Source: Mermis nigrescens (lineage: Eukaryota > Nematoda > Enoplea > Mermithida > Mermithidae). From it: 64,000 nucleotides of DNA. Of this stretch, positions 9,029 to 38,585 are shown in pieces. The notes beneath the pieces are model-generated. The model did no database searches. It was not told where the DNA came from and worked only from the letters and a program-made list of their open reading frames with translations. The stretch covers positions 3,613,893-3,677,892 of the forward strand of contig JAVLUZ010000223.1 of assembly GCA_036768485.1 (NCBI GenBank). Reading direction: 5' to 3'. How positions within the stretch are numbered: position 1 is the first letter of the stretch; every line of letters begins with the position of its first letter. The translations under genes were made by a program, and so were the position numbers.

Positions 9029-9034
9029 TACATA
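9029..9034. repeat. Target-site duplication TACATA (left)
   Basis: TACATA directly precedes the AGTAGTATACC end of element 1 and matches 20155-20160 exactly. Confidence 0.92.
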
Positions 9035-10484
9035 AGTAGTATACCGTGTCTCCCTAGACTCATATCTTATAGCGTTGTAGTGTTATAAGATAGGCAGATC
9101 TGCTCCCTGGCCCAAAATCGAGATTGCGCCAGGGAGAAAATGGGTTGGGGTCCTGCCCGAACGTGCCCGGGGAGGGGGCGCGCGCCAGCTTAGGGCCCAG
9201 GGCCAGGGGGGATACAATAACCCAGGGGGTTATTACCCAGGGGGTTATTATCCAGGGGTTATTTCTGAAAAGCGTAAGTCAAGAACCAGCTGTCGGATCG
9301 GGCTCAAATTTTCAGAGTATGATGTATATAGGCGAGGCATGCTAAGCATAGAAATTCAGCGCGCAGCCTACAGTATACCAATTTACTTTAAACTTTCTCG
9401 TATATCACTATATTTCGAGAACTATAGGGCGGATTTAGCTCAAATTTTCAGAGTAGGGTGAATACCCTATTTGTAAATTATTACAAAAATTTGGAGTAAG
9501 TACCTACCGTATATATTAATTTACTTTACACTTTCTCATATAGTACTATATTTCGAGAACTATAGGGCGTATTTAGCTCAAACTTTCAGGGTAAGATATA
9601 TAAGGTGTGCTATGTACAAAATTTTAGCGCGTAACCTAGAGTATGCCAATTATACTGCCTGATGGCGTCAAACGGATGGATGTAAAGTTCTCTATGGAGA
9701 TCTATTTTTTATAACTAGTAATCAATTATTATAAACATGCCCGGACCTACCCGTAAGCCTAAGGAGTGCCTGGGGACCACTAGTAAGGCTAGGGGGTCCT
9801 GAAAAGGGGGTCGCTTGGCATTTTATCGATTTTTTACACTAACAGTTGGTTCCAAAACAACTTGTTCCAAAACAGAGGCAATATAGGTTGTCCAGTCCTA
9901 GGGAGTATTGTTGTATTTTGTGGGGGGAGACTCAAGCTTAGGGAAAAAGTTTTTCCTAATTTTTAACCAATCTTTATGCATCAGCTTCAACAGCTTCATT
10001 TTTTCTTACAGTAACAGTTGGCACCGTAACAACTTGTTTCGAAACAACATTGTCAGTGTGTGTGTGTGTATGTGTGTTTGGGGGTAGCAGTCCTTGTGGG
10101 AGTCCACATGCGCCACCACCACAAGCGCCACCTCCACAAGCGCCATCAAGTTCCACAAGCGCTACTGTATTCACTGTATCCTTTATAGTTAGTTTATGAA
10201 AGTAGTCAGCTATTTTGTCATCAGGTCGTAGCGATTATTATCTACGCGCAAATTAATTATTTTGATGGCATTTGGCCCTTCATAAAACAGAATATTGTCC
10301 GAGTATACTTTAATTTGGTAGTCAGGTACCAGAATGTTTTGAATTTTTTCAACAGCTTCAAGACCGTATTTTTCTTTATCAGTGTTAAGATCAGCTTTGT
10401 GCATTAAATCTAAAGCTAGCTGCTTTTGTAGCGTGCAACGGCTTTTATTGCCTTTCCTAATAGACTCCCATTTAGGGCTATTGT
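9035..10484. repeat. Left terminal inverted repeat of element 1
   Basis: The repeat is about 1450 bp and is an inverted copy of 18659-20154. It contains a GC-rich subterminal block, a tandem ATAACCCAGGGGG-type repeat (about 9205-9265), three diverged ~150-bp modules that share AGCTCAAATTTTCAGAGTA-like words (about 9290-9660), and a GT/CA microsatellite near 10055. Its inner part holds the last ~90 codons of the PolB N-terminal ORF. TIRs above 1 kb are usual for Polintons. Confidence 0.92.
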
Positions 10485-10926
10485 CCAGCTTTGCTATTCC
10501 TGTAACAACAACTCGGGGTAGTGATAAATTATCATTTGATGCAATTTTAATGTACGCTCGTCTACCCAATTGTGATTTTTTATCTACTACGACTACCTTG
10601 AAGATCATATCTTCAACAAACCTAAGCTCCTTATTGGACTGTGCTATATTTTCAATAATACTAAAAACTTTGTTGGTGTTCAAATACTGACGCTGAGTAA
10701 ATGGAACTAATACAGGGAAGTCAAGGCATGAATGTTTGATTTCTAGACCTATTAGACTGTCTGCGGGGTAATGCTTGAGCATCTTTTGAATAGCTTGCTC
10801 AAACATCTCTTCAATATCAGGACAGTCATCAAGGTTTCGAAACTTTAGTCGGAATGTACTTGCAGCTGACTTGAACCTATGAACAGAAGTGAATGAGTGT
10901 TCGCTTACTTCAAAAAATTGATCCAT
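10210..10926 (-). CDS. N-terminal domain of Polinton protein-primed DNA polymerase B (truncated)
   Basis: The 238-codon ORF is complete and open. It resembles the N-terminal region of Polinton/adintovirus pPolB, including a conserved EIKH-x-LDFPVLVPF-like segment (residues ~62-77) and a terminal NNRYDLMTK block. In full-length pPolB that last block is followed by the Cys-rich, exonuclease and polymerase domains. Here a TAG stop follows immediately, and neither the exonuclease nor the palm domain exists anywhere in the element. The last ~90 codons lie in the left TIR and are repeated at 18659-18933. A TATAAATA box on the minus strand (10963-10970) lies 37-44 nt upstream of the ATG. The family assignment is from recognition only, and the function of a stand-alone N-domain is unknown. 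It may be a fossil fragment kept open by chance. Confidence 0.72.
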   Translation of the reverse strand: MDQFFEVSEHSFTSVHRFKSAASTFRLKFRNLDDCPDIEEMFEQAIQKMLKHYPADSLIGLEIKHSCLDFPVLVPFTQRQYLNTNKVFSIIENIAQSNKELRFVEDMIFKVVVVDKKSQLGRRAYIKIASNDNLSLPRVVVTGIAKLDNSPKWESIRKGNKSRCTLQKQLALDLMHKADLNTDKEKYGLEAVEKIQNILVPDYQIKVYSDNILFYEGPNAIKIINLRVDNNRYDLMTK

Positions 10927-10962
10927 CTTTGAGGAAAACTATAACATATACTGCTTGACCCT

Positions 10963-10970
10963 TATTTATA
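10963..10970 (-). promoter_or_regulatory. TATAAATA box upstream of PolB-N ORF
   Basis: An exact TATAAATA on the minus strand, 37-44 nt before the ATG at 10926. It sits head-to-head with the integrase box at 11022. Confidence 0.6.
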
Positions 10971-11021
10971 GACAAAATCATTGCATTAGATGGTAAGAAT
11001 CCAAAAAGTAGGAATGTTGTT

Positions 11022-11029
11022 TATAAATA
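11022..11029 (+). promoter_or_regulatory. TATAAATA box upstream of integrase
   Basis: An exact TATAAATA 27-34 nt before the ATG at 11056. It supports 11056 rather than the upstream ATG at 10990 as the start. Confidence 0.65.
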
Positions 11030-11055
11030 GATGGAATGCTAAAAATTGTTCAAGA

Positions 11056-12091
11056 ATGAATAAAATACTTAAGAAACTGTACTACAATCCACAAAGTGGA
11101 TACACTGGCGTTAATCAACTTTACACTCGCATCACAAAGATTTGCCCGATTGTTAAATTAGAACAAGTATGTGCCTGGCTAGAAAAGCAACCCACCTATA
11201 CTTTACACAAACCCATCCTCAAGCATTATTCACAAAATAGAGTATTAGTAAGCAGCATTGATGAACAATGGCAATGTGATATTGTAGATCTCTAGTCTTT
11301 AAGCAAGTTTAACAATAATTTTAAGTATCTCTTGAATTGCATAGACATATTTTCAAAATATGCATGGTCTCTTCCTCTAAAATCTAAAAGTTCAAAAGAT
11401 GTTCTGACCGCTTTTCAAAGCATTTTAAATTCATCTAATCGAAAACCGTACAAGCTGCAAACGGACGCAGGGACCGAATTTACAAACAAGGAGTTCCTGA
11501 AATTTCTAAAATCTGAATCTATCGATTTTTTCACGACCAGAAGCGAAACAAAAGCTAGCGTAGTTGAACGTTTTAATCGCACGCTTAAAGAAAGTATGTG
11601 GCGGTACTTCACAAAGAGTAATTCATATAAATATATTGACATATTACCCGACTTGATGAAAAATTATAATCACTCTAAGCATTGTACGATAGGTACATTG
11701 CCAGCTAATGTGACCATAAAAAATGAGACGGACATCTTGAATAGAGCATTTAGAATTGATAAACAGAACATTGTCTTTAAATTTGATATTGGTGATAAAG
11801 TCCGACTGAGTAAAGTTAAGCGCCCTTTTGAAAAAGGATTTTGGCCCAACTGGACAGAGGAGTTTTTCGTAATTAAAGAAAGATATGCTCGAAACCCATC
11901 CGTTTATGTTCTAGAAGGGTATTTTTTATGAGCCTGAATTGCAAAAAATTGAAACAAAAACTGACAATTTGTATGTAATTGAAAAGATTTTGAAAACACG
12001 TAAGAAAGGCAATAAAACTAATTATTTAGTACGGTAGTGAGGGTACCCAGAAAAGTTTGATTCCTGGGTCTCGAACGTAATAAAGTTATAA
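11056..12091 (+). pseudogene. Polinton integrase (retroviral-type DDE plus chromodomain), broken
   Basis: An rve-family integrase that would insert the linear element DNA with a 6-bp stagger. The start at 11056 gives the same N-terminus as the element 2 integrase (LKNLYYN-type). Catalytic residues are visible: Asp in QCDIVDL, Asp in QTDAGTEF and Glu in VVERFN. The C-terminus is chromodomain-like (VIEKILKTR...YPEKFDSWVS). There are three breaks: a TAG at 11293-11295 where element 2 has Gln, a one-base frameshift near 11925, and a TAG/TGA pair near 12033. The last stop TAA (12089-12091) overlaps the next gene's TATAAATA box. Divergent from the PolB-N ORF. No active protein is expected. Confidence 0.9.
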
Positions 12092-12094
12092 ATA
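12087..12094 (+). promoter_or_regulatory. TATAAATA box upstream of the 105-aa ORF
   Basis: An exact TATAAATA 35-42 nt before the ATG at 12129, overlapping the integrase stop codon. Confidence 0.6.
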
Positions 12095-12128
12095 GTAAGT
12101 ATTTCTGTATTTCCAATTAAAGGCAAAA

Positions 12129-12446
12129 ATGGAGATCAGCCGATGTTTTTTCAATCATATGTTGCATCGTTTGTCACAATACACTTACTTGTCTGATGAT
12201 GCAATTGGAGATTATTTTTGGCCAAAAATGAGCAAGCAATATAAGCAAACATTGCTGGAATTTGATGAGAATGCCATGTTGAGCTTCTCAAAGTATATCA
12301 GAAAACGAGTAAAAAAGGGCAATATTTACACATTATTTAAATTATGGGAATTTCTAAGTCCTGAGGCCAAATTTTATTTTGCAAACCTTTACATCATACA
12401 CATAGACGAGTACCTAATCTCATCCATGTCTAAGGTTTTAATATAA
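12129..12446 (+). CDS. Unknown 105-aa element protein
   Basis: An intact ORF preceded at the usual distance by a TATAAATA box (12087-12094), which supports it as a real gene. The product is rich in Lys, Tyr and Phe, has no signal peptide or zinc motif, and has a basic patch (RKRVKKG) in the middle. I recognise no family. Element 2 has no counterpart at this position. It is convergent with the TBP gene across a 240-bp tandem repeat. Possible roles are regulatory or accessory; nothing in the sequence decides. Confidence 0.55.
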   Translation: MEISRCFFNHMLHRLSQYTYLSDDAIGDYFWPKMSKQYKQTLLEFDENAMLSFSKYIRKRVKKGNIYTLFKLWEFLSPEAKFYFANLYIIHIDEYLISSMSKVLI

Positions 12447-12690
12447 AGTTTTGCGGAGTTTGTAAAATTTTTTGTAAAGTTTGGAAATTTTTTTGTAAAG
12501 TTTGGAAATTTTTTTGTAAAGTTTGGAAAATTTTTTTGCAGAGTTTGGAATTAATTTTGTGTGCTTAAGCATAGGAATTTTGCAGAGTTTGGAAATTTTT
12601 TTTGTAAAGTTCGGAAATTTTTTTGTAAAGTTTGGAAAATTATTTTGTAGAGTTTGGAAAATTTCTTGTAAAGTTTGGAAAATTATCATT
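12447..12690. repeat. Tandem repeat of ~20-25 bp, TTTTGTAAAGTTTGGAAATT type
   Basis: About ten diverged head-to-tail units fill the gap between the 105-aa ORF and the TBP gene, which converge here. A closely similar unit (TTTTGTAAAATTTGGAAATT) fills parts of both TIRs of element 2 (about 26160-26450 and 37100-37345). Open frames across it encode KKISKLYKK-like repeats and are not genes. Confidence 0.85.
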
Positions 12691-13201
12691 TAATTTGGCA
12701 TTGTTCAAGCATTGTTGAGACTATTTTATATGCTATATGCAACTCATGCTTGTGTTTTGCACCTGTGAGAATCATCTTTCCGCTTGTAAAGAGCAAAAAT
12801 GTTACATTTCGAAATTTGTATACTAAACCAGGAAACAATTCTACTTCGTACATGCATTTCTCATTTACCATCTCATAAAATTTACAAAGATCAATGCAAA
12901 ATCCCAAGTTAGCCGAGCCAACAAAAAGCTCAGGCTTTATTTTCAACATTGAATTCTCCATCTTTAGTATTTGGATGAATGCCTTTATCGTATTTTTGCC
13001 TTCTTGTATAGTTTTAGCTGCAACGCATACAATTTTACCCGATCTGAAAATCAGTAATGTTGCCTGAGGTAATCGAAATACAATACCTGGAAATCTTTGG
13101 TGATTGTATTGCGCTGTATTTGGCAATTTCAGATAGACATCATCTAGATTTAGCGTATTCGGCAGTGCTGTAGTTAGCACAATGTTCTGTATTGTGACCA
13201 T
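12686..13201 (-). CDS. TATA-binding protein (TBP) homologue carried by the Polinton element
   Basis: An intact, intronless 171-codon gene for a core-only TBP saddle. Repeat 1 (residues ~1-75) has IQNIV, an NTAQYNHQRFPG block matching the NAEYNPKRFA block of animal TBP, and LLIFRSGKIV. Repeat 2 (~85-165) has VGSANLGF, YEVELFPGLVYKF and FLLFTSGKMILTGAK. The four minor-groove phenylalanines are present: F37, F52, F123 and F138. Each pair is 15 residues apart, whereas cellular TBP has 17, so both hairpins are two residues shorter. The DNA-contacting Asn of repeat 1 (N6) is kept, but its partner in repeat 2 is replaced (PELFVG for IQNIVG). There is no N-terminal extension. It diverges from the ATPase gene, with a minus-strand TATAAATA 31-38 nt upstream. 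The likely role is transcription from element promoters. It could have been captured from a host or come from a giant-virus-like lineage. Confidence 0.9.
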   Translation of the reverse strand: MVTIQNIVLTTALPNTLNLDDVYLKLPNTAQYNHQRFPGIVFRLPQATLLIFRSGKIVCVAAKTIQEGKNTIKAFIQILKMENSMLKIKPELFVGSANLGFCIDLCKFYEMVNEKCMYEVELFPGLVYKFRNVTFLLFTSGKMILTGAKHKHELHIAYKIVSTMLEQCQIK

Positions 13202-13246
13202 TTTCTATAAACACCTGTATATATAAATCATTATTTATAAACAAAA
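13202..13246. promoter_or_regulatory. Bidirectional promoter between TBP and packaging ATPase
   Basis: The gap is 45 bp between two divergent starts. A minus-strand TATAAATA (13232-13239) serves TBP. TATAAATC (13222-13229) faces the ATPase, 18-25 nt before its ATG. The equivalent region of element 2 (27974-28058) also has opposed TATAAATA boxes. Confidence 0.65.
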
Positions 13247-13894
13247 ATGATTTTCCAACATCCTTTCACCTGCCTTGTCTCAGGGCCTACAAAATCTGGC
13301 AAAACAACGTTTGTTAGGCGACTGATTGAGAACAGAGAATATTTGATTGATACTAAAATTAAAAAGATTTTGTGGTGCTTCGCAGAAAACCAACCACTTC
13401 ATAAGAAAATCGATCATGTGTCATTTATAGAGGGGCTTCCTGATCTTAGTTACTTTAAGCAGTTCAGCCCTACACCACAACTTTTGATACTCGATGATTT
13501 AATGCAAGAGAGTAATGGTAATGCTCAAATTGTACAACTATTCACAAGGAGTTGTCATCATTGGAACATTAGCATTATACACATTGTTCAAAACGTTTTC
13601 TTTGATGGTCTAAGAACTTCACGTATAAACTCGGATTATATTGTTTTATTTAAAAATCCTGCTGATCAGCTACAAGCACAAATGCTGTCTAGGCAGCTTT
13701 ACCCTACCAATCCAAAATATTTTCTAGAAGCCTTTTCCAATGCTACTTCTCTTCCGCATGACTATCTTCTGATTGATCTCACTCAAAATTCTAGAGATGA
13801 GCTCAGGCTGAAAACAAATATTTTCAGTGATAGTCCCACTGTTTATATACAAAAATCTATAAATACTAAGAAAAACACTAATGAAATAATGTAA
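13247..13894 (+). CDS. Polinton genome-packaging ATPase
   Basis: An intact 215-aa P-loop ATPase of the type that pumps DNA into Polinton and adintovirus capsids. The Walker A motif GPTKSGKT is at residues 13-20 and the Walker B motif LLILDD at 79-84. The QNVFF/NSDYIVLFKNP region downstream is typical of the Polinton family. It aligns throughout with the interrupted copy at 28059-28688. It is the first of a run of plus-strand capsid genes. The length is about normal for the family and no key residue is missing. Confidence 0.9.
   Translation: MIFQHPFTCLVSGPTKSGKTTFVRRLIENREYLIDTKIKKILWCFAENQPLHKKIDHVSFIEGLPDLSYFKQFSPTPQLLILDDLMQESNGNAQIVQLFTRSCHHWNISIIHIVQNVFFDGLRTSRINSDYIVLFKNPADQLQAQMLSRQLYPTNPKYFLEAFSNATSLPHDYLLIDLTQNSRDELRLKTNIFSDSPTVYIQKSINTKKNTNEIM
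13858..13865 (+). promoter_or_regulatory. TATAAATA box upstream of pX-like gene
   Basis: An exact TATAAATA 32-39 nt before ATG 13897, inside the end of the ATPase gene. Element 2 has the same arrangement at 28684-28691. Confidence 0.65.
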
Positions 13895-13896
13895 AA

Positions 13897-14248
13897 ATGG
13901 GTAAAGAACGATTAAAACGCAATATTGTATGTCTACATCTCTTATGTAAAACAAAAAAAAGCTCAAAGAGACACTATTATAAATACTGCAACTAAAGATC
14001 AGATCCTTTGTCTCTGCGACTGTGCAAACAATTTCCTGAACAGTAATATTCATTTTTCTGAGAAAGATATCAACAAACTTCAAAGATACCAGAATCAAAT
14101 AAGATACTTAGCAAACAATAAACAGGCAAGTACAAAAGGAAGAAAAAATATCATAATACAAGACGGTGGTTTTCTTTCACTTCTACTTACTCCTATACTT
14201 ACAATTGCAGGCAGTTTACTAGCAGACGCAATTACAGGTAAAAAATGA
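13897..14248 (+). pseudogene. Small basic-hydrophobic Polinton core protein (pX-like), frameshifted
   Basis: A conserved Polinton protein of ~115 aa. A basic N-terminal half has a QIRYLANNK...KGRK block, followed by IIIQDGGFL and a hydrophobic tail LLLTPILTIAGSLLADAI. Such proteins are usually compared with adenovirus core/pX-type virion proteins. The ATG at 13897 reads only 33 codons before a stop. The rest continues in another frame after a frameshift in the A-rich run near 13950-13965. The terminal TGA (14246-14248) overlaps the next gene's ATG in an ATGA. A homologue is at 28699-29031. Confidence 0.75.
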
Positions 14249-14811
14249 AACACACTGAAAAAATGATTTTAATACCCACTGAAATAAGCGAGCGTTATAA
14301 GCCAGTGGATATTTGACCCGATTCTTTGGATAATGAGATGCAAAAAATCTTGAATAACAAAAATGTACCACCTGATGCAAAGCTCATGAAATATAATCAG
14401 ATACTTGTCAAATTTAAGCAATTGCAAGAGCAGAAACAGCAACCAAATAAAGCTGGCATTGTTGAAGATGTAAGTAATGCAATTAGTGATGAAGAAATAC
14501 TCTCTGGTATGCCAAAAACTCAAATTTCAAAGGCAAAGCTGCTTCTTCACCATACACGTACTAATCCATTTCTTGAAATTGAGCCGGGTGGTGAACTTGT
14601 AATAGATGGTCAAAAAATTGAAGACTCAAATGTTATGGATTCAGTTAATGATCTGGCATGCAAGCGCAAAAAAATCAGCAGATATCCTGGCACAAAGGAA
14701 CTGCTGAAAGTGTTCAATTGCATGAATGTTCCACTTGAAAGTGTGGGTAATAGGCAAGCTAGGGAGATTTTCGCCGCAGGCAATGAATTTGACTGGGATG
14801 AAAGTCTCTAA
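14245..14811 (+). pseudogene. Conserved Polinton core protein, one premature stop
   Basis: This belongs to a widely conserved Polinton family of unknown detailed function that lies between the pX-like and pVI-like genes. Features are a KMILIP start region, EMQKILNNK, an EEILSGMPK segment, the ELVIDGQKI...SNVMDSVNDL block and the C-terminal GTKELL...VPLESVGN region. The natural start at 14245 is followed in frame by TGA at 14314-14316. The frame stays open from 14326 to 14811, so a downstream start cannot be excluded. It has no TATAAATA box of its own and overlaps the preceding stop codon (ATGA), as in element 2. Confidence 0.78.
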
Positions 14812-14851
14812 ATACTTACTGTATTCAATTTAATCAAATAAAATTACAAAA

Positions 14852-15292
14852 ATGCAAGTACAATTTACTCCTGACGATTTAAGCATTTGGTTAGAATACA
14901 ACACTGGGCAGGCAGCCCAAACTGGCTACGGGTTAAAGGGGTTCAAAGGCATTCCATATCAGCGTGGCATAGGGCTTGGCAGCTTTTTTCGTTCCCTTTT
15001 CAGAATGGCCGTCCCAGTTTTGCAATCTATTGGTAAGCGAGTTGGAAAGCATGCTCTAGTTGCAGGTTCAAACATAGCGTCTGATTTGGCTTGGGGAAAA
15101 CCGCTTTTTGAGTCTAGTAAGGAACATTCAAAGCGAGAAGCTGCTCAATTGTGTGATGAGGCCTCTAAATCTCTACAGCAGCAGCAAGGAGAGGGTCTTG
15201 GTAGCCGCCCAAAGTCTATAAATACTAGCGTGATAGATGCTTTTTCTAAAAACAATGGCGCTCATAGACGTAAAATCTATCCCAAGTACTAA
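14852..15292 (+). CDS. pVI-like minor virion protein
   Basis: The 146-aa ORF has a TGYGLKGF...YQRGIGLGSFFRSLFR segment (residues ~24-51), then an amphipathic stretch MAVPVLQSIGKRVGKHALVAG and a Gln/Ser-rich tail. Gly-rich plus amphipathic regions of this kind are typical of the Polinton/adintovirus protein compared with adenovirus pVI, a membrane-lytic or cement protein cleaved by the viral protease. A weak box, TCTAAATA (14807-14814), lies 38-45 nt upstream. The 3' end overlaps the capsid gene by 38 nt in another frame. A homologue is at 29610-30041. Confidence 0.75.
   Translation: MQVQFTPDDLSIWLEYNTGQAAQTGYGLKGFKGIPYQRGIGLGSFFRSLFRMAVPVLQSIGKRVGKHALVAGSNIASDLAWGKPLFESSKEHSKREAAQLCDEASKSLQQQQGEGLGSRPKSINTSVIDAFSKNNGAHRRKIYPKY
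15217..15224 (+). promoter_or_regulatory. TATAAATA box upstream of the major capsid gene
   Basis: An exact TATAAATA 31-38 nt before ATG 15255, inside the end of the pVI-like ORF. The sequence GTCTATAAATACTAG is nearly the same as the pX-gene box context. Confidence 0.68.
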
Positions 15293-16547
15293 AACTGAAT
15301 CGGACCTTTTCACGGTCCCTCCTACTCAGGTTGTTATAAAGCAAGGCTTTTGGCATGAAATCCAGCCTACCCATCCAATTACCAATGAGGGGCCTTATGA
15401 ATTCAGAATACCCCCACACCCCCATTATCTACAGCTGAATAGAAATTATATTAATATGTTACTACGAATAAAAAAACCAACTGTTGCTGCTGGAGCAGCA
15501 GTACCCGACTATGCACCTATAAACCTTATTGATAAAACTTTCTTCAAGCAGGTAAAATGCTTTTTAGGAGGCAAATTAGTTTTTGACAGCTCTGATAAAT
15601 ATGCCTACAGAGCATACTTTGAAACTGAACTGAATTATGGAAATGATGCTAAGCATTCACACTTGCAAACAGCGTTATATTTTCATGAGGGTGGCAATAA
15701 TGTTGACACAAAAGGTAGTGAATCATTCAAAAAGCAAGCTGCTATGTTTAAAGATGAAAATGTTGTTGAAGTTGCGGCTCCACTACATATTGACATGTTC
15801 TTGCAAGACAGGTATCTGATTAATTTCACCAATTTTTGCTTAGAATTACATAGAAATAGTGATGCGTTTTTATTGCAATGCTTTAAGGATGTCGTGTTAG
15901 ACTTGAGAGTCTCACAAATGAAATTTTTTATTCGAAAAGTTGATGTATTAGACACTGTAAATTTAGCACTCAAGCAAACAATGCTTTCATACATGGCAAA
16001 ATATCCTATTAGACGCGTAGCTATGACTAATTTACACATCTCAAATCCTGCTAGAGAAACGCCCAATTATACATTGTTTACTGGTCAGCTGCCTAGGCGT
16101 ATATTATTTGCTTGTGTTGAAGGCAGTGCTTATTGAGGCAATCTAGCAAAATCACCATTTAATTTCAAATCGTTCAGCATACAAGATGTAAAAGTAACAA
16201 GCAGTGGCATAACATATCCTGCTTACCCACTCAACATTTCATTCAAATACGATAGGTACTTGCAAGCATATAATCAAATGTTTGATGCTTTAGACATAGA
16301 GCGAGAAGGTAATTTTATTAGCAGAGATGAGTTTAGAACGAGTCACTGTTTTTTTGTATTTGATTTGACACCTGATGCAGATGATGGAGGGCATTGGGAT
16401 CTTGTGCGTGGAGGAACAACAAGCATATCTGTAAGATTTGCCAATAATTTGCCTGATTCTGGTGTAGAAATTATTATATATGCTGAATTTGATAATTTTA
16501 TAATGATTGACAAAGACCAAAACAAGTTTCATGATTATAACGCATAA
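15255..16547 (+). pseudogene. Double jelly-roll major capsid protein, one in-frame stop
   Basis: The hexon-like capsid subunit of Polintons. Landmarks are the MALIDVKSIPS N-terminus, an LFTVPPTQVVI segment, VPDYAPINLIDKTFFKQVKCFLGG and ISRDEFRTSHC. The end is GVEIIIYAEFDNF. The frame is open for ~293 codons, then TGA at 16134-16136 interrupts it, where element 2 has an Arg codon. It resumes in the same frame to TAA 16547. A truncated product would lack the second jelly roll's end. The protease start follows the stop after 2 nt. A homologue is at 33914-35216. Confidence 0.9.
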
Positions 16548-16549
16548 AC

Positions 16550-16975
16550 ATGAACACTATTGAAATATTTAAAATTCTTAAACATAATATTAAAAATGAC
16601 ACATTTTTAGGAGTTTTTCCTTTAGATCGCTTACCACCTATAAGAGCATACCCCGCAGCGCTAGTGGTAAACTTTGACACAAGCAGCAAACCTGGCTCTT
16701 ACTGGGTAGCCATATATTTCCAGAGCAAGAAGAATTTTGACTATTTTGACAGCTATGGGCGAAAACCACTCAAACAGTTAAGGAATTACATTTCAAATAA
16801 TACAATTGCGTATAAATACAATAATGCACAAGTACAAGGAATTTTCTCAATTAGCTGTGGTCATATGTGTGTCTATTTCATTGTTTGTAGAAGTAGAGGT
16901 ATTCCATTTGAAAATATTGTTCTATCTATGTTCAGTGAGAAAATTTATAAATACTTTGATGACTTAGAATTATAA
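16550..16975 (+). CDS. Adenain-like cysteine protease, catalytic His replaced by Tyr
   Basis: This 141-aa protein matches the adenovirus-type maturation protease of Polintons. Visible are GVFPLDRLPP, the Asp-containing YFDSYG (D67), an oxyanion-type Gln in VQGIFSISCG (Q96) and the nucleophile Cys in SCGHMC (C103). The catalytic His should lie in a GS-H-W motif. Here it is GSYWVAIYF (Tyr51), while element 2 keeps GSHWVALYF, a CAC-to-TAC change. The reading frame is open but the enzyme is probably dead. It has no TATAAATA box and starts 2 nt after the capsid stop. Confidence 0.88.
   Translation: MNTIEIFKILKHNIKNDTFLGVFPLDRLPPIRAYPAALVVNFDTSSKPGSYWVAIYFQSKKNFDYFDSYGRKPLKQLRNYISNNTIAYKYNNAQVQGIFSISCGHMCVYFIVCRSRGIPFENIVLSMFSEKIYKYFDDLEL
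16946..16953 (+). promoter_or_regulatory. TATAAATA box upstream of penton
   Basis: An exact TATAAATA 25-32 nt before ATG 16978, inside the end of the protease gene. The same arrangement is at 35628-35635 in element 2. Confidence 0.65.
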
Positions 16976-16977
16976 AC

Positions 16978-18671
16978 ATGGATTCTAAACAGTTTTACAT
17001 AACGCTTCCAAGCAATTCACAGGAAACCAATACTGCGGCCATATTTGTAACTAGCCTACCTAGGCAAATCGTATTAACCGGCGACTGGGAGGTTGGAATG
17101 GTTGAAATAATTTATGCAAATACATGGCATAATTTTGCCAGAGACCAGAATATGATACAGTTTTATGACATCAAAAACAATGTGCGACAAAAATTGCTTA
17201 CTCCTCGAGCAAGGTATTTAAATATAGATGACTTGATTAAGACAATCACTAATGGGATAAAAACGATTAGCGTTAAAGAAAAATTTTAATACTTGCAATA
17301 CTTTGGCATAAGGTATGATGATAATAAGAAATTCTGTCACCTAAAAATTAATACAGGATACATTTGAAGTGTAAAGTTAACAAAACATTCACTATATATG
17401 CTTGAAATTCTGGAAAGCCAGCTTACGAGGGGTGTCCCATAAGTCCTTAGGTTTTTCTGCAAAAATGGACCATTGTTTGCCGTTTTTTGTCAGAATATTA
17501 GTTTGCTTATTTTAGCAAAACTTGCAAAATTTCAGTCAATTTCGCCATATATTCTATAAATTATTTAGATTTTTGATGAATTTTTAGCGACTTATTTTAC
17601 CCCAATTTTTGAAAATTGAACTTAGTGAAAAAACAACACTCTTCGTTTTGATGCCAAAATTTCAAAAAAAGATCGGCATGAATACTAACATACAAGAAGG
17701 TAGCCTGGTCAATGCTCTTCTTTTCAAACGGCATTCCACATAGAAACGCCATCTCTGTATGGAACAGGGTTTCCAGAATCAAAACAACCCATTTTCAGCG
17801 ACATTTGTGAGGTTAGGTGCACCTGATTAGTTAATATTAGCAGCCAATTAAAAAGCCATGGTGGTTTCCATAGAGAAAACACTCAGGACAGTTCATTTCA
17901 AAATTCAGTTAGCTGTGATCAACAGTTTGAAAACTGTAGGAACTTTTGTGAAACCAAAAAGCCAACTTTTTTGCAGTCGAAAAAAAACTGTTGAATGAGA
18001 CAATATTTTGCCTATTTTCTACCGATCAGAATGAGCCTAATTAAAACGGCTCCACAGTGAAGAACAGTAGACTCCCTGCTACCAATGTGTTCAATAAAAA
18101 TCTGTATACGATTACTGTAAACAAAGTGAGGAATGAAGAACCATTTTGAGACACCCTGTCTTATTAATATTTTTCTAAGCCCAATATTTCCTTCAAAAGG
18201 AAACGAATGGAAACAAAATTTTGTCAATATTCCTTAAAGATGTCAGGGTACATTCTAACCAAAAATGGCCTGACAGAATCAATTTCCCTGTAAAAAGCTA
18301 AGGACTTCTGGGACACCCCTCGTAGCAATATAAATAATTCTGTGGCGCAAGATTTGACCATAGTAGCACACCATTCTCCTGATATACTAGGTGGAATGCA
18401 TAATTTTTACGATTATTGTGATATAGTCGAGCCTCAAATTGTTGGAAATATTTTTGCGCCACTCTTGCAAGTCGTAAATATTGAAGGAAAGTATATGGAT
18501 ATCATTAATCATTCATATATTAGTCCACATTACATACCTGTACTCAAAATAGCATTCAACACTGTTGAAATAGATATTAAAAGCGATCAAGATCAACCTG
18601 TACCCTTTGAATTTGGCAAAACTATCGTAAAATTGCATTTTAGATGGCAAAATCAAAAACAATACCCCTAA
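16978..18671 (+). pseudogene. Minor capsid (penton, single jelly-roll) gene split by a MITE
   Basis: The N-terminal part (16978-17289) has the hallmark of Polinton penton proteins: FYITLPSNS, LPRQIVLTGDWEVGMVEI and a WHNF motif. Stops and at least one frameshift follow at 17287-17370. An 897-bp MITE then splits the gene after the ESQL codons at 17418. The C-terminal part resumes after 18324, with HHSPDILGGMHNFYDYCDIVEPQIVGN. It ends KTIVKLHFR directly at the right TIR, so the last few codons are TIR sequence. The homologue at 35669-36447 lacks the insertion. Confidence 0.88.
17426..18322. mobile_element. Mariner/Tc1-type MITE inside the penton gene
   Basis: An 897-bp insertion with TA on both sides (17424-17425, 18323-18324). 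The terminal inverted repeats are ~25 bp (CGAGGGGTGTCCCAKAAGTC, continuing CTTAG), with one T/G mismatch. TA duplication indicates a Tc1/mariner-superfamily transposase in trans. Internal open stretches (17597-17782, 18012-18227 minus) have no recognisable transposase domain. Confidence 0.88.
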
Positions 18672-20154
18672 ATGGGAGTCTATTAGGAAAGGCGATAAAA
18701 GCCATTGCACGCTACAAAAGCAGCTAGCTTTAGATTTAATGCACAAAGCTGATCTTAACACTGATAAAGAAAAATACGGTCTTGAAGCTGTTGAAAAAAT
18801 TCAAAACGTTCTGGTACCTGACTACCAAATTAAAGTATACTCGGACAATATTCTGTTTTATGAAGGGCCAAAGGCCATCAAAATAATTAATTTGCGCGTA
18901 GATAATAATCGCTACGACCTGATGACAAAATAGCTGACTACTTTCGTAAACTAACTATAAAGGATATAGTGAACGCAGTAGCGCTTGTGGAACTTGGTGG
19001 CGCTTGTGGAGGTAGCGCTTGTGGGGGTGGCGCATGTGGACTCCCACAGGGACTGCTACCCCCAAACACACACACACACACACACACACACTGACAATGT
19101 TGTTTCGAAACAAGTTGTTACGGGGCCAACTGTTACTGTAAGAAAAAATGAAGCTGTTGAAGCTGATGCATAAAGATTGGTTAAAAATTAGGAAAAAACT
19201 TTTTCCCTAAGCTTGCTTTACACTACTTTACACTTTACATTTTACACTAGTCTCTCCCCACAAAATACAACAATACTCCCTAGGACTGGGCAACTTATAT
19301 TGCCTCTGTTTCGGAACAAGTTGTTTCGGAACCAACTGTTACTGTAAAAAGTCAATAAAATGCCGAGGAACCCCCTTTTCAGGACCCTCTAGCCTTACTA
19401 GTGGTCCTCAGGCACTCCTTAGGCTTACGGGTAGGTCCGGGCATGTTTATTATAATTGATTACTAGTTATAAAAAATAGATCTCCATAGAGAACTCTACA
19501 TCCATCTGTTTGACGCCATCTGGCAGTGTAATTGGCCTACTCTAGGTGACGCGCTAAAATTTTGTACATAGCACACCTTATATATCTTACCCTGAAAGTT
19601 TGAGCTAAATACACCCTATAGTTCTTGAAATATAGTACTATATGAGAAAGTGTAAAGTAAATTGATATATACGGTAGGTACTTACGCCAAATTTTTGTAA
19701 TAATTTACAAAAGGTATCCACCCTACTCTGAAAATTTGAGCTAAATCCGCCCTATAGTTCTTGAAATATAGTGCTATACGAGAAAGTGTAAATTAAATTG
19801 GTATACTGTAGGCTGCGCGCTGAAATTCTATGCGTAGCATGCCTGGCCTATATACATCATACTCTGAAAATTTGAGCCCGATCCGACCGCTGGTTCTTGA
19901 CTTACGCTTTTCAGAAAAATAACCCCCTGGATAATAACCCCCTGGGTAATAACCCTCCTGGGTTGTTATTGTATCCCCTCCCCGTGGCCCTGGGCCCTAA
20001 GCTGGCGCGCCCCCCTCCCCGGGCAGGTTCGGGCAGGACCCCAACCCATTTGCTCCCTGGCGCAACCTCGATTTTGGGCCAGGGAGCAGATCGCCCTATC
20101 TTATAACACTACAACGCTATAAGATATGAGTCTAGGGAGACACGGTATACTACT
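18659..20154. repeat. Right terminal inverted repeat of element 1
   Basis: The repeat is about 1496 bp and is inverted relative to 9035-10484. Homology stops at ACAAT (18659-18663), exactly where the penton reading frame ends. It carries a second copy of the last ~85 codons of the PolB N-terminal ORF (to 18933), and a CA microsatellite (about 19068-19092) longer than the left copy. The arms differ by point changes and small indels, so they have diverged since insertion or the last gene conversion. Confidence 0.92.
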
Positions 20155-20160
20155 TACATA
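20155..20160. repeat. Target-site duplication TACATA (right)
   Basis: TACATA directly follows the GGTATACTACT end of element 1 and matches 9029-9034 exactly. Confidence 0.92.
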
Positions 20161-25145: not shown

Positions 25146-26611
25146 AGTAGTTAAGCGTGTCTCCCTGGTGTGCAACACAAAGTATAGCCCGTGCTTAAGC
25201 ATAGGCTATATACGTCATACATGATCTAGGAGGAGGTGACGTCGGACGATGACGTCACACCATGGGTAACCTCAAGTATGGGTATACTGTGAGTCTTTAT
25301 AAACTTGCGGATTCAAGTCAGACAGGTATACTTTACACTACAGCAAGAGTATCTATTTAATGCAGGGGGAGGGGGATAGCTATCAAAATTTTATTTTTTG
25401 GGGATAACTATGAACACCGTATACCATACTAAATGTATACAATATTCTAACTTGCGTATCACTTGACCACTTTACACTTTACACTTGACTAGTTTACACC
25501 ATATCATAAAACCGCAATAAATCATGAACCAATAGATGAATCAAGCTGAAATGTTCAGAATTAAAGAATACATGCCAAAAATAATGTATATGGAAATTTG
25601 TGCACTGGCTTACTGTAGCTATGTTATAACACGTATTTTTGAACCAATAGCCAGATTGAGCTTAAATTTGAGAAACAGCATATATGTGAAACACAAATTC
25701 TTTGTACATTGTCTTACTGTAGGTATACTGTGGCTTTCTGAATTTTCTATATCCCACAAACTAACAGTCGAATAAAGCTGAAATTCAATAAATTAGATGT
25801 ATATGAGTCAAAAATAACGTACGCAAAATATAGTGCATGGGGCTACTGTAGGTATGCTACAAGACGTATCTTTTAATTTGCCGAGCTGGAAATTTGAGAG
25901 ATTTAACAAATACGATAGAACAGCGCAACAGAACTACTATAGGCAACATTTAGTAACCCATAGTGTGGAAAAGGAGGTTGTGAAAAAGGTTACAGAGGGT
26001 CAACAGTCTTGCACAGATCTCCCCCAACTTAAAGCTAGAGGATCACTCTGTAGACTGCAGATCTTTTGTATGAACATACTTAAAACGTGCATAATACTTA
26101 ATAAGACTATGAGACAATAAAACATGAAGATACGGGTTTAACAAAAAAAAAATCAGACATATTTTGTAAGATTTGGAAATTTTTTTGTAAAATTTGGTGA
26201 CTTTTTGTAGAATTCGGAAATTATTTTGTAAAATTTGGAAATTATTTTGTAAAATTTGAAAACTTTTTGTAAGATTTGGAAACTTTTTTGTAAAATTTGG
26301 AAATAATTTTGTAAAATTTGGAAACTTTTTTATATGGTTAAGTATGAGTGTTTTGTAGAATTTGGAAACTTTTTTTAAAATTTTGAAATTATTTTGCAAA
26401 ATTTGGAAATTATTTTGTAAAATTTGGAAATTATTTTGTAAAGCTTGGAAATTCCAAAACAACAAAAGTATTAACAGTTTGACTATCGTGGAAACCCATG
26501 AGTCAAATTTTGATGGGTAACCCCGCCAGTGGACCAGATATTTGGTCATATTATTCCTCCCACGCGTATTTAGAATTTTATCAACAATCAAAAGCTCACT
26601 TTTCTTTACAT
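25146..26611. repeat. Left terminal inverted repeat of element 2
   Basis: About 1466 bp, inverted relative to 36937-38585. It holds three modules sharing CTTACTGTAGSTAT-like words (near 25610, 25715 and 25843), a tandem TTTTGTAAAATTTGG array (about 26160-26450), and the chromodomain end of the integrase gene. Confidence 0.9.
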
Positions 26612-27643: not shown

Positions 27644-27973
27644 TTAATAATTCAATTTTTCCTTCTCTTTCTCCAAATCTTGGGCTATATATCGCCTTAT
27701 AACGCTGTTTCCTGCATCCTGAGATGATCGGTTATATTCTATACATCTTGGACACATTTGTACAGTAAAATATGTACGCCCTGAATTTGTTTCAAAACAT
27801 CCTTCTTCCGAACTGGCTCTTTGACAATAAAAACATAATTGAATCATGAGAGGAAACATCGGCCATTCTAAGTTTTGCCCACAAAGAGCTATTGGCGGTC
27901 TAATTGACCTGCTATACAGCTTCCTTTCCTCATCATTAAAAGGATATTTCTTAATTTCATGCACTTCCTCCAT
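27644..27973 (-). CDS. Unknown 109-aa protein with CxxC-x23-CxxC motif
   Basis: An intact ORF occupying the position where element 1 has TBP: divergent from the packaging ATPase and preceded by a minus-strand TATAAATA (28011-28018), 38-45 nt before the ATG. The motif is CFYC, then CPRC 23 residues later (residues ~47-76), with a further Cys between. The spacing suits a zinc ribbon, as found in transcription factors such as TFIIS-like or viral late-transcription proteins. This is inference only. The charged tail (EKEKEK) is hydrophilic. No homologue is recognised. Confidence 0.6.
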   Translation of the reverse strand: MEEVHEIKKYPFNDEERKLYSRSIRPPIALCGQNLEWPMFPLMIQLCFYCQRASSEEGCFETNSGRTYFTVQMCPRCIEYNRSSQDAGNSVIRRYIAQDLEKEKEKLNY

Positions 27974-29609: not shown

Positions 29610-30041
29610 ATGCATGTTAAATTCAATCTGGACGATTTTAATCTGTGGTTAGAGTACTATAGTGGGCAGGCCGCCCAAACAGGCTATGGACTGGAAGGAT
29701 TTTGAGGGACTACATACCAAAGAGGTGGCGGCTTAGGCAGTTTTTTCCGGTCTTTGTTTAAAATGGCTGTTCCAGTTTTGAAATCTATAGGGAGAAATGT
29801 TGGAAAACACGCCCTAGTTGCAGGGGCAAATATTGCAATGGATGTTGCCCAAGGGAAACCGCTTTTTCGGTCAACTAAGGAACATTCAAAACGAGAAGCA
29901 TCACAACTTTTTGATGAAGCCTCTAAAGCTCTACAACAACAATCTGGTGAGGGTTTAGGTAGTTGGCTAAAGTCTATAAATATGAATACAAACAATTCAT
30001 TTATAGCAAAGAAAAATGCTCCGATGGAACAAAAAAGATGA
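29610..30041 (+). pseudogene. pVI-like protein of element 2, one stop
   Basis: A homologue of 14852-15292: LEYYSGQAAQTGYGLEGF, GGGLGSFFRSLFKMAVPVLKS and GKHALVAGANIA. In-frame TGA at 29703-29705. The tail (from 30005) forms the left arm of a 169-bp inverted duplication. A TATAAATA for the following capsid gene is retained at 29975-29982, but that gene is now ~3.9 kb away. Confidence 0.78.
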
Positions 30042-30173
30042 ATATACTTGGAATTGTGGATTATTATAGATGTAAAAGGAGGGGACTAGGAAAAATCTAC
30101 CTAAAGTCGGAAAATCTGCTAAAAATCACACTTTCTCTAAGCAACGCAAAAAATCGATGTATATTCTGCGGCC
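30005..30173. repeat. Inverted duplication, left arm (169 bp)
   Basis: It pairs with 30597-30765 at near identity, with a spacer of 423 bp. The arm includes the last codons of the pVI-like gene, so gene sequence was copied in inverted form. Confidence 0.9.
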
Positions 30174-30596: not shown

Positions 30597-30765
30597 GGCC
30601 GCAGAATATACATCGATTTTTTGCATTGCTTAGAGAAAGTGTGATTTTTAGCAGATTTTCCGACTTTAGGTAGATTTTTCCTAGTCCCCTCCTTTTACAT
30701 CTATAATAATCCACAATTCCAAGTATATTCATCTTTTTTGTTCCATTGGAGCATTTTTCTTTGCT
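30597..30765. repeat. Inverted duplication, right arm (169 bp)
   Basis: Inverted copy of 30005-30173, marking one side of the extra DNA that separates the pVI-like and capsid genes. Confidence 0.9.
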
Positions 30766-31083
30766 AGTACACTACTTTTAATTAGCGTGATTTCAGTACA
30801 TCAGTCAGTAAACACAATCAGTAATATGCCACAATAATGAAAACAGTCCAGGAACGCGGAAAACAATATTGTTCTTAACATCAGCATTATCCTTTTTAAA
30901 CAAGACAACCTTATTGACACCATCCATTTTCAAATTAAAACTCCATTAAGTTATTTCTTCTTAATGTGCAGTTCACTTATAATCAAGCACAAATATTTAA
31001 CCAACGAATTCACATTGCAAATCCTCACTCAATCAATACACAAGCACAATGTGTTGTGACTTTTGAAATTGAAAACACCCAAT

Positions 31084-36936: not shown

Positions 36937-38585
36937 ATGTACAGAAAGGTGAGCTTTTGATTGTTGATAAAATTCTAAATATGCTTAGGAGGAATAATAA
37001 GACCAAATATCTGGTCCACTGGTGGGGGTACCCATCAAAATTTGACTCATGGGTTTACATGGGTAGTCAAACTGTAAATAGTTTTGTTTTTTTGAAATTT
37101 CCAATCTTTACAAAATAGTTTCCAAATTTTACAGAATAATTTCCAAATTCTGCAAAAAAAATTTTAAATTTTACAAAAATTTCCAAATTTTACAAAAAAT
37201 TTTCCAAATTCTACAAAACACCTATACTTAACCATATAAAAAAGTTTTCAAATTTTACAAAATAATTTGCAAATTTTACAAAATAATTTCCAAATTCTAC
37301 AAAAAAGTTTCCAAATTTTACAAAAAAATTTCCAAATCTTACAAAATATGTCTGATTTTTTTGTTAAACCCGTATCTTCATGTTTTATTGTCTCATAATC
37401 TTATTAAGTATCATGCACGTTTTCAGTATGTTCAAACAAAAGATCTGCAGTCTACAGAGTGATCCTCTAGCTTTAGGTTGGGGGAGATCTGTGCGAGACT
37501 CTGAACCCTTTGTAACCTTTTTCACAACTACCTTTTCCACACTATGGGTTACTAAATGTTGCCTATAGTAGTTCTGGTGCACTGTTCTATCGTATTTGTT
37601 AAATCTCTCAAATTTCCAGCTCGGTATAATTAAAAGATACATGTTGTAGCATACCTACAGTAATCCAATGCACTATATTTTGCGTACGTTATTTCTGACT
37701 CATATACATCTAATTTATTGAATTTCAGCTTTATTTGACTGTTTGTTTGTGAGATATAGAAAATCCAGAAAGCTACAGTATACCTACATAACTGACTTCT
37801 AAATGTTTGTGACTGGTTCATATCTAAAGAAGGTGTATTTTTGGCCTATTGGCAGTCACATAAAATAATAATAATGCTTTATTCAAACCCGTAGGTACAA
37901 TACAATGTTAAGATCTTAACATTATATTGTACCTACGGGTTTGAATAAAGCATTATTATTATTTTATGTGACTGCCAATAGGCCAAAAATACACCTTCTT
38001 TAGTATACCTACAGTAAGACAATGTACAAAGAATTTGTGTTCTCAGCGTATATGCTCTTTGTCAAATTTAAGCTCAATCCGGCCATTGGTTCAAAAAAAT
38101 ATGTGTAATAACATAGCTACAGTAAGCCGGTGCACAAATTTCCATTTACATTATTTTTGGCATGTATTCTTTAATTCTGAACATTTCAGCTTGATTCATC
38201 TATTGGTTCATGATTTATTGCGGTTTTTTGATATGGTGTAAACTAGTTGAGTGTAAAGTGTAAAGTAGTCAAGTGAAATGCAAGTTAGAATATTGTATAC
38301 ATTTAGTATGGTATGCGGTGTTCATAGTTATCCCCAAAAAATAAAATTTTGATAGCTTCCCCCTCCCCCTGCATTAAATAGGTACTCTTGCTGTAGTGTA
38401 AAGTATACCTGGCTGACTTGATCCGCAAGTTTATAAAGACTCACAGTATACCCATACTTGAGGTTACCCATGGTGTGACGTCATCGTCCGACATCACCTC
38501 CCCTAGATCATGTATGAAGTATATTGCCTATGCTTAAGCACGGGCTATACTTTGTGTTGCACACCGGAAGACACGCTTAACTACT
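36937..38585. repeat. Right terminal inverted repeat of element 2
   Basis: About 1649 bp, inverted relative to 25146-26611. It is longer mainly because of a palindromic insertion (37826-38001). It contains a second copy of the integrase C-terminal coding segment and the tandem TTTTACAAAA-type array (about 37100-37345). Confidence 0.9.
37826..38001. repeat. Near-perfect 176-bp palindrome inserted in the right TIR
   Basis: The two halves mirror each other around AGATCT (centre 37913/37914), with one mismatch seen. The opposite TIR lacks it. Copies of AGTATACCTACA flank the inserted block (about 37783 and 38001), so it looks like an insertion with a ~12-bp duplication. Confidence 0.9.

Follow-up and report, generated by a model that had tools for sequence, protein, structure and literature searches.

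Polintons are positioned close to the origin of many eukaryotic DNA viruses and are commonly assumed to rely on host transcription. A locus of the nematode Mermis nigrescens raises the question of whether such an element can carry a TATA-binding protein (TBP) of its own as a working component, and what that protein would do there. The window, that is, the whole 64-kb stretch of DNA that was analyzed, holds two Polintons, here called elements A and B, and a TBP reading frame lies inside element A. An earlier note on this DNA had read the TBP as part of the element; the observation itself is confirmed, and the reading is supported.

The TBP gene and its element

Element A is bounded, as the note had it, by terminal inverted repeats (TIRs) and a perfect target site duplication (TSD). 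Its termini, AGTAGTAT...ATACTACT, are of the AG...CT type, and the TIR arms (9033-10484 and 18659-20156, ~1.45 kb) are ~93% identical with gaps and show 4.8% mismatches. From left to right the element contains a 238-aa ORF (minus strand), an integrase gene (plus), a 105-aa ORF, a 21-bp minisatellite, TBP (minus), an ATPase gene (plus), two ORFs, the pX-like, capsid and protease genes, and two further ORFs. TBP had been described as flanked by integrase and capsid genes, which is right as to order, but its direct neighbor is the ATPase gene and the capsid start lies ~2 kb beyond. The features of both elements are as follows (L numbers denote loci outside the window).

9035..20154, element A, Polinton, 11,120 bp, with TIRs and the 6-bp TSD TACATA on both sides
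10210..10926, minus strand, ORF of 238 aa, its 3' part in the left TIR; no Pfam family above cut-off
10990..11931, plus strand, rve integrase (rve 6.9e-9, 36.3 bits against a cut-off of 32.6), in-frame TAG at 11293
12129..12446, plus strand, ORF of 105 aa, recurring in TBP-bearing copies (pieces mostly 66-90% identical, some 49-62%)
12438..12684, 21-bp minisatellite, 3' of the TBP stop codon, also in the TIR region of element B
12686..13201, minus strand, TBP gene (lineage I), 171 aa, ATG to TGA, frame open
13202..13246, putative divergent TBP/ATPase promoter, 45 bp, TATA-like boxes on both strands
13247..13894, plus strand, A32/FtsK-like packaging ATPase, open (Pox_A32 3e-4, 20.8 bits against a cut-off of 22.8; AAA_14 2.8e-4; both below gathering)
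13916..14248, plus strand, ORF kept in sister elements, 70% identical to element B, no ATG at the frame head
14326..14811, plus strand, ORF kept in sister elements, 50% identical to element B over 109 residues and 71% to L049
14852..15292, plus strand, pX-like protein, open, 69% identical to element B
15255..16547, plus strand, double jelly-roll major capsid protein, in-frame TGA at 16134, Sputnik-like predicted fold
16550..16975, plus strand, adenovirus-type protease, frame open (PF00770 0.0067, 16.6 bits, below the cut-off of 21.3)
16978..17289, plus strand, conserved capsid-module ORF, 45% identical to L012 over 60 columns
18294..18671, plus strand, second conserved capsid-module ORF, 43% identical to L012
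25146..38585, element B, second Polinton, 13,440 bp, TSD CTTTGG/CTTTGA agreeing at five of six positions
27644..27973, minus strand, CxxC..CxxC ORF of element B, with relatives (mostly ~90% identical) adjoining TBP lineage II elsewhere

Sister copies score higher in several of these families. The ATPase of L070 passes the Pox_A32 cut-off of 22.8 with 24.5 bits, the protease of L049 passes that of PF00770 (1.3e-5, 25.4 bits, cut-off 21.3), and the L049 integrase matches rve at 9.6e-15. The predicted capsid model (pLDDT 63.8) finds the Sputnik capsid as its best Foldseek match (6.4e-6); DJR-like Pfam families were found in 5 of 32 capsid relatives, and the L049 capsid scores 16.9 bits, below the cut-off of 27. 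The 238-aa ORF, which may resemble an N-terminal piece of PolB, has 41% identical relatives upstream of or beside TBP in L055 and L062, and against the PolB-bearing copies L069 and L070 its best match is no better than E 2.6. The 3' part of this ORF, which sits in the TIR, is duplicated in the other arm (18631-18930). Six PolB-region frames of L069 and L070 match nothing in the 64-kb window and the Pfam-scanned frames contain no PolB, so element A seems to be a PolB-lacking copy. Rfam and tRNA scans of the whole window gave no match.

The copy in the window is decayed. Stops interrupt integrase and capsid, and the protease has Tyr at the position that is His in element B, L049 and L070, presumably the catalytic His of adenovirus-type proteases. 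The earlier note had described an open TBP frame among broken neighbors, and this stands for the integrase (TAG at 11293) and the capsid gene (TGA at 16134), but not for the pX-like gene. Since three other frames, those of the ATPase, the pX-like protein and the protease, are also open, the open TBP frame of this copy says little alone. An argument for selection from that frame was therefore dropped, and the evidence on selection comes from other copies.

The protein itself is a TBP by several measures. A Pfam profile scan of the window protein matched PF00352 over two repeats (E=1.1e-40, 137.7 bits against a cut-off of 22.9), and the TBP saddle fold is predicted for the element TBP in full. 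On alignment with human TBP, the positions of the intercalating Phe residues (F37, F52, F123 and F138) are all Phe and the first central Asn is present as N6, all in agreement with what had been claimed from the sequence. The same alignment bears out the reported divergence: in both repeats the hairpin falls two residues short of its human TBP counterpart, and the second Asn position is L92, a loss limited to lineages I and III. In TBPs these Phe positions serve DNA intercalation and the Asn positions belong to the DNA-binding face, and E119, E121 and L122 correspond to the TFIIB-facing residues E186, E188 and L189 of yeast TBP. Compared with a set of up to 89 other TBPs, the window protein retains 19 of the 22 positions conserved at 90% or more, and matches the majority residue at just 20 of 106 variable positions. 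Position P120, which is 97% conserved in other TBPs, is Val, Ile or Ala in the element TBPs.

Element B encodes relatives of element A genes and has no TBP: tblastn with lineages I-IV (E <= 0.01) matched only the element A TBP in the window. TBP is thus not universal among Polintons, even within this window. The CxxC..CxxC protein of element B matches no Pfam family above cut-off. Its relatives stand beside TBP lineages II and III, in lineage II usually with an integrase, and it may be a second transcription-related factor. We rejected the idea that it replaces TBP, as L049 has both genes and lineage II TBP adjoins the CxxC ORF. Two repeats were also seen. The 21-bp minisatellite is common to both elements (12438-12684, 26141-26492 and 37064-37360); in both it lies toward the end that holds the integrase, within the TIR region in B but internally in A. 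Inverted repeats of 170 bp, 99% identical, lie within element B (30004-30173 and 30597-30766) and may mark a recent nested insertion.

Copies, linkage and lineages

The window's own assembly (524 Mb, 860 contigs) was searched for further copies. Window-type TBP is present in at least 150 copies (the best 150 of 2177 candidates were scored), which are 74-100% identical and spread over 88 contigs, with no internal stop in 135 of them; the ATPase gives the same picture (best 150 of 2034 candidates scored). Some copies are assembly or segmental duplicates, such as L014 and L015, which are identical over 3,513 bp, and independent insertions are therefore fewer than copies. Matching the two lists placed a scored ATPase 43-47 bp away, in divergent orientation, for 70 of the 150 scored TBPs. 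With 150 homologous copies, 70 of them next to the same listed neighbor, the TBP ORF is not a product of chance. Thirteen of the 80 unmatched ATPases were examined (L055-L067; L068, already matched, was taken along), and TBP adjoins every one of these 13 loci from outside the TBP list. It is whole in six of them (residues 1-170 in one stretch, identity down to 63%), in pieces in four (L060, L061, L064 and L067) and partial in three (residues 1-27 in L059, 1-39 in L065 and 1-139 in L066).

A different, second-type integrase adjoins TBP at five loci. Two of these, L069 and L070 (9.9 kb read), run from PolB through TBP (minus strand), the second-type integrase and the ATPase on to the capsid. PF03175 was matched at 7.6e-8 in one L069 frame, and the other three of four PolB-region frames from L069 and L070 gave no Pfam family; the two loci are 83% alike in this region, and PolB pieces recur at L042, L044, L048 and L099. 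L049, which belongs to the 74% group, keeps the gene order of element A from integrase to capsid module and has the CxxC ORF in addition. In many copies TBP thus accompanies the element, next to the ATPase or, where PolB is present, next to the second-type integrase. The two rve integrases are ~35% identical and occur with similar capsid modules (L069 and L070 versus L049), and L070 has both, the second type beside TBP and the element-A type ~5 kb downstream.

The presumed host TBP gene consists of two exons 2.7 kb apart on contig C73, which when joined are 87% identical to human TBP; lineage I TBP is only 32-36% identical to it. A genome search with the Pfam TBP profile, in which the best 150 of 2552 candidates were scored, led us to take up 30 loci, 28 of which are not host exons. 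All 28 have a Polinton-type neighbor (tblastn, E <= 1e-3) and uninterrupted TBP frames. In addition to the window type, lineage I, these loci include three lineages. Lineage II stands beside a CxxC ORF (mostly ~90% identical to that of element B), usually with an integrase too; lineage III stands beside a ~55% relative of the CxxC ORF; and lineage IV has as its neighbor an ORF 28% identical to the 105-aa ORF, with a PolB fragment match at L099. Neither ATPase nor capsid was found in the 4.9 kb upstream of one lineage II copy, a stretch that holds the minisatellite together with a chromodomain-like frame and some others. The four lineages are now 34-48% identical to one another. Sampled members of all four keep the first Asn; the second is Asn in lineages II and IV and Leu or Met in I and III, and the fourth Phe position is Tyr in lineage II.

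In the TBP tree, the 12 sequences from lineages I-IV group into a single clade (UFBoot 99) that joins the eukaryotic and large-virus-type TBPs (98), apart from archaeal TBPs. Branches are long (1.12 for the window TBP alone), so attraction is possible. At least four TBP lineages thus occur next to Polinton-type genes and, with this caution, group together outside the cellular eukaryotic TBPs that were sampled. The earlier description of a divergent paralogue that is no recent host copy was, if anything, understated. An archaeal origin was considered, as window-type TBP is 42% identical to Sulfolobus TBP versus 34% to human TBP, and is not supported: the trees instead group the element TBPs with eukaryote-type TBPs (UFBoot 97-99), long branches again advising caution.

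Selection, promoters and the role of the element TBP

Selection was assessed on the full-length, gapless TBPs among L014-L068 (48 copies, 42 distinct, broken copies left out). None of the 42 distinct copies contains a stop. Pooled dN/dS falls with distance, from 0.485 at dS<0.05 (134 pairs) and 0.324 at 0.05-0.15 (91 pairs) to 0.179 at 0.15-0.3 (2 pairs), 0.171 at both 0.3-0.6 (220 pairs) and 0.6-1 (216 pairs), and 0.144 at 1-3 (196 pairs); two pairs were saturated. The ATPase control (24 distinct copies, three with stops) gave 0.170, 0.265, 0.169, no pairs, 0.087 and 0.063 across the same bins. Ten subfamily representatives of TBP have a median dN/dS of 0.153 over 45 pairs, of which one very close pair reaches 1.82 and one is saturated, and lineage II has a pooled value of 0.207 (15 distinct of 17 copies, dS up to 0.14). 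A pooled value of 0.514 for lineage III was discarded, as its copies had been compared without gaps despite an indel difference.

By these ratios, ~0.15 between subfamilies, TBP has been under purifying selection while the elements were active. The signal is weaker in recent pairs, as judged from 0.485 for lineage I TBP against 0.170 for the ATPase, and between deep copies the relative rate of TBP is about double that of the ATPase (0.144 versus 0.063). The residues singled out above are kept nearly throughout lineage I: F123 and F138 in 42 of 42 distinct copies, N6, F37, F52, E121 and L122 each in 41, and E119 in 40. In some TBP pairs the two repeats differ in synonymous divergence (dS of 0.92 for repeat 1 versus 0.15 for repeat 2 in L042/L043; also L048/L049). 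This unequal divergence between subfamilies suggests recombination between elements, and the TBP copies look mosaic.

The motif TATAAATA occurs 11 times in element A, seven times in element B and five times in the other 39.3 kb of the window. We chose 29 gene starts in element A, L049, L069 and L070 at which the aligned start is an ATG. This choice omits four frames that lack such an ATG (two ORFs in element A, plus the L049 integrase and its 105-aa ORF), as well as further small ORFs of L069 and L070. Eighteen of these 29 have TATAAATA at -60 to -20 (observed, -32 to -58), compared with a mean of 1.1 and a maximum of 6 in 10,000 draws of random ATGs from the same stretches. The motif precedes the TBP start in four of four cases and the capsid start in four of four; the exact motif is absent at 11 of the 29 starts, including protease (3/3), integrase (3/3) and ATPase (3/4). 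The TBP/ATPase spacers are 43-52 bp long, and all 17 distinct versions have TATA[AT]A on both strands. In element B, TATAAATA lies at four of eight starts (random mean, 0.28).

We consider it probable, though well short of certain, that a large clade of Polintons carries TBP as a stable component that acts as an element-encoded initiation factor. The protein would be made early in the active phase of the element and would bind and bend TATAAATA TATA boxes; the kept TFIIB-facing stirrup (E119, E121, L122) could then recruit host TFIIB and RNA polymerase II, so that transcription of element genes could begin independently of the host TFIID pool and the way it is regulated. Only a few bases separate the TBP start codon from the TATA box in the ATPase direction, and a full complex on that box would therefore tend to block TBP transcription. 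Such negative feedback might let factor production give way to expression of the capsid module. Several findings count against an initiation factor: TATA boxes in the TBP-less element B, the 11 of 29 starts without TATAAATA, the altered Asn and P120, the Tyr of lineage II, the higher omega of lineage I TBP than of the ATPase, broken or partial TBP at 7 of the 13 extra ATPase loci, and the lack of ATPase and capsid in the 4.9 kb upstream of one lineage II copy.

The promoters of element B, which have TATA boxes without a TBP, mean that host TBP may suffice, and they favor a different role in which element promoters use host TBP and the element protein competes with host TBP, TFIIA or TFIID (by squelching or as a dominant negative), lowering host transcription or silencing. 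The great divergence of lineage I from host TBP (32-36% identity) and the absence of one central Asn in lineages I and III would fit as well. We nevertheless regard a host-directed factor as rather unlikely, as a decoy need not keep the DNA-intercalating and TFIIB-facing residues, yet these are kept, and the TATA boxes cluster where element genes begin. We give less credence still to an architectural function, with the saddle bending AT-rich DNA in integration, replication or packaging and not in transcription. Close linkage of TBP to the packaging ATPase, or to the integrase in L069 and L070, is what such a function might predict, but the start-to-start arrangement of TBP and ATPase across a 43-52-bp TATA-bearing spacer is as co-regulation predicts.

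That the host has taken over the TBP copies as a multigene family of its own, which their number and open frames might suggest, is very improbable given that TBP and ATPase are linked for 70 of the 150 TBPs listed and at all 13 extra ATPase loci, and given the raised omega in recent copies, which fits inserted and not domesticated copies. That the element captured a host gene or pseudogene which does nothing for it, a reading compatible with the decayed state of the window copy, can be set aside almost entirely in view of the 150 scored copies, omega of ~0.15 between subfamilies, uninterrupted frames and 32-36% identity to host TBP; a recent host pseudogene, in particular, is contradicted by the presence of TBP in sister copies (best 150 scored), the purifying selection and the distance from host TBP.

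Returning to an element-encoded initiation factor, we tentatively propose a broader history that is possible, if less than likely. TBP may have been acquired a single time, before the radiation of Polintons in this host lineage, from a source that branches outside the cellular eukaryotic TBPs sampled here, and kept in at least four lineages. These elements would hence have a promoter-recognition system of their own, made up of a private TBP, a recurring TATAAATA box ahead of most genes and a divergent TBP/ATPase promoter that regulates itself. If so, TBP Polintons would amount to small integrating viruses that supply the first step of Pol II transcription themselves.

Comparison with known systems

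We found no paper title on TBP in a Polinton, in a search on Polintons, Mavericks and virophages that covers subscription papers and preprints thinly and so does not prove absence from print, and the main text of a paper on Mavericks and their relatives contains neither 'TATA' nor 'TBP' (PMC10328495). A scan of IMG/VR for TBP-bearing Polintons with a TBP alignment gave 11 loci (L001-L011), three of them partly annotated: L001 has large-virus-like PolB and SNF2 genes, and L002 and L004 have a DNA polymerase small subunit and cellular-type enzymes. Polinton capsid and ATPase profiles matched none of the 11. A single TBP sequence and the lineage I, ATPase and capsid alignments found nothing in IMG/VR, in scans for short conserved peptides that can miss relatives. 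The protein collection contains 412 capsid relatives at E <= 0.01, up to 76% identical, and no TBP more than 38% identical to the window TBP (one search scored the best 7995 word-sharing candidates). A contig scan with the capsid alignment found two contigs from bacterial metagenome-assembled genomes, both carrying the Polinton capsid module and both without TBP. These, L012 (NZ_JASJAV010000039.1, Breoghania) and L013 (QGON01000009.1, Escarpia endosymbiont), are probably eukaryotic contamination.

The elements share with Polintons/Mavericks the AG...CT TIRs, 6-bp TSD, rve integrase, A32-like ATPase, adenain-type protease and double jelly-roll capsid, along with PolB in sister copies. They differ in the TBP gene, which appears in neither of two published gene lists (one in PMC4028283), in line with the earlier note, which had placed TBP outside the Polinton gene set. 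At 11.1 kb, element A is also shorter than the 15-20 kb given for Polintons in PMC4028283, and the PolB pieces of sister copies match nothing in it. In contrast to cellular TBP (host C73 and human), lineage I has shorter hairpins, no N-terminal extension and no introns, and is 32-36% identical to the host copy. A selected, element-encoded TBP means that some Polintons carry part of the general transcription machinery. It provides a compact system, open to experiment, in which a candidate private initiation factor evolves next to host TBP in one nucleus, along with numerous naturally occurring forms of the TBP saddle and their candidate target boxes.

Other virus-encoded TBPs provide the closest parallel. 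TBP genes are encoded by large eukaryotic DNA viruses and mirusviruses (PMC4602308, PMC10132985) and have been reported in elements of putative mirusvirus origin (PMC10675990). The TBP of L001 falls in the same wider clade as those of the Polintons. However, the viral genomes, at 171-178 kb and 431.5 kb in the texts consulted, are far above Polinton size, and the Polinton TBPs form a clade separate from large-virus TBPs (UFBoot 99) and are bare cores of ~165-185 aa. The haloarchaeal viruses HRTV-9 and HJTV-2 also carry TBP, but theirs is 28-35% identical, their hosts are prokaryotic and their genomes are ~75 kb. Apart from the Polintons described here, we thus met virus-encoded TBP only in viruses of 75 kb and more.
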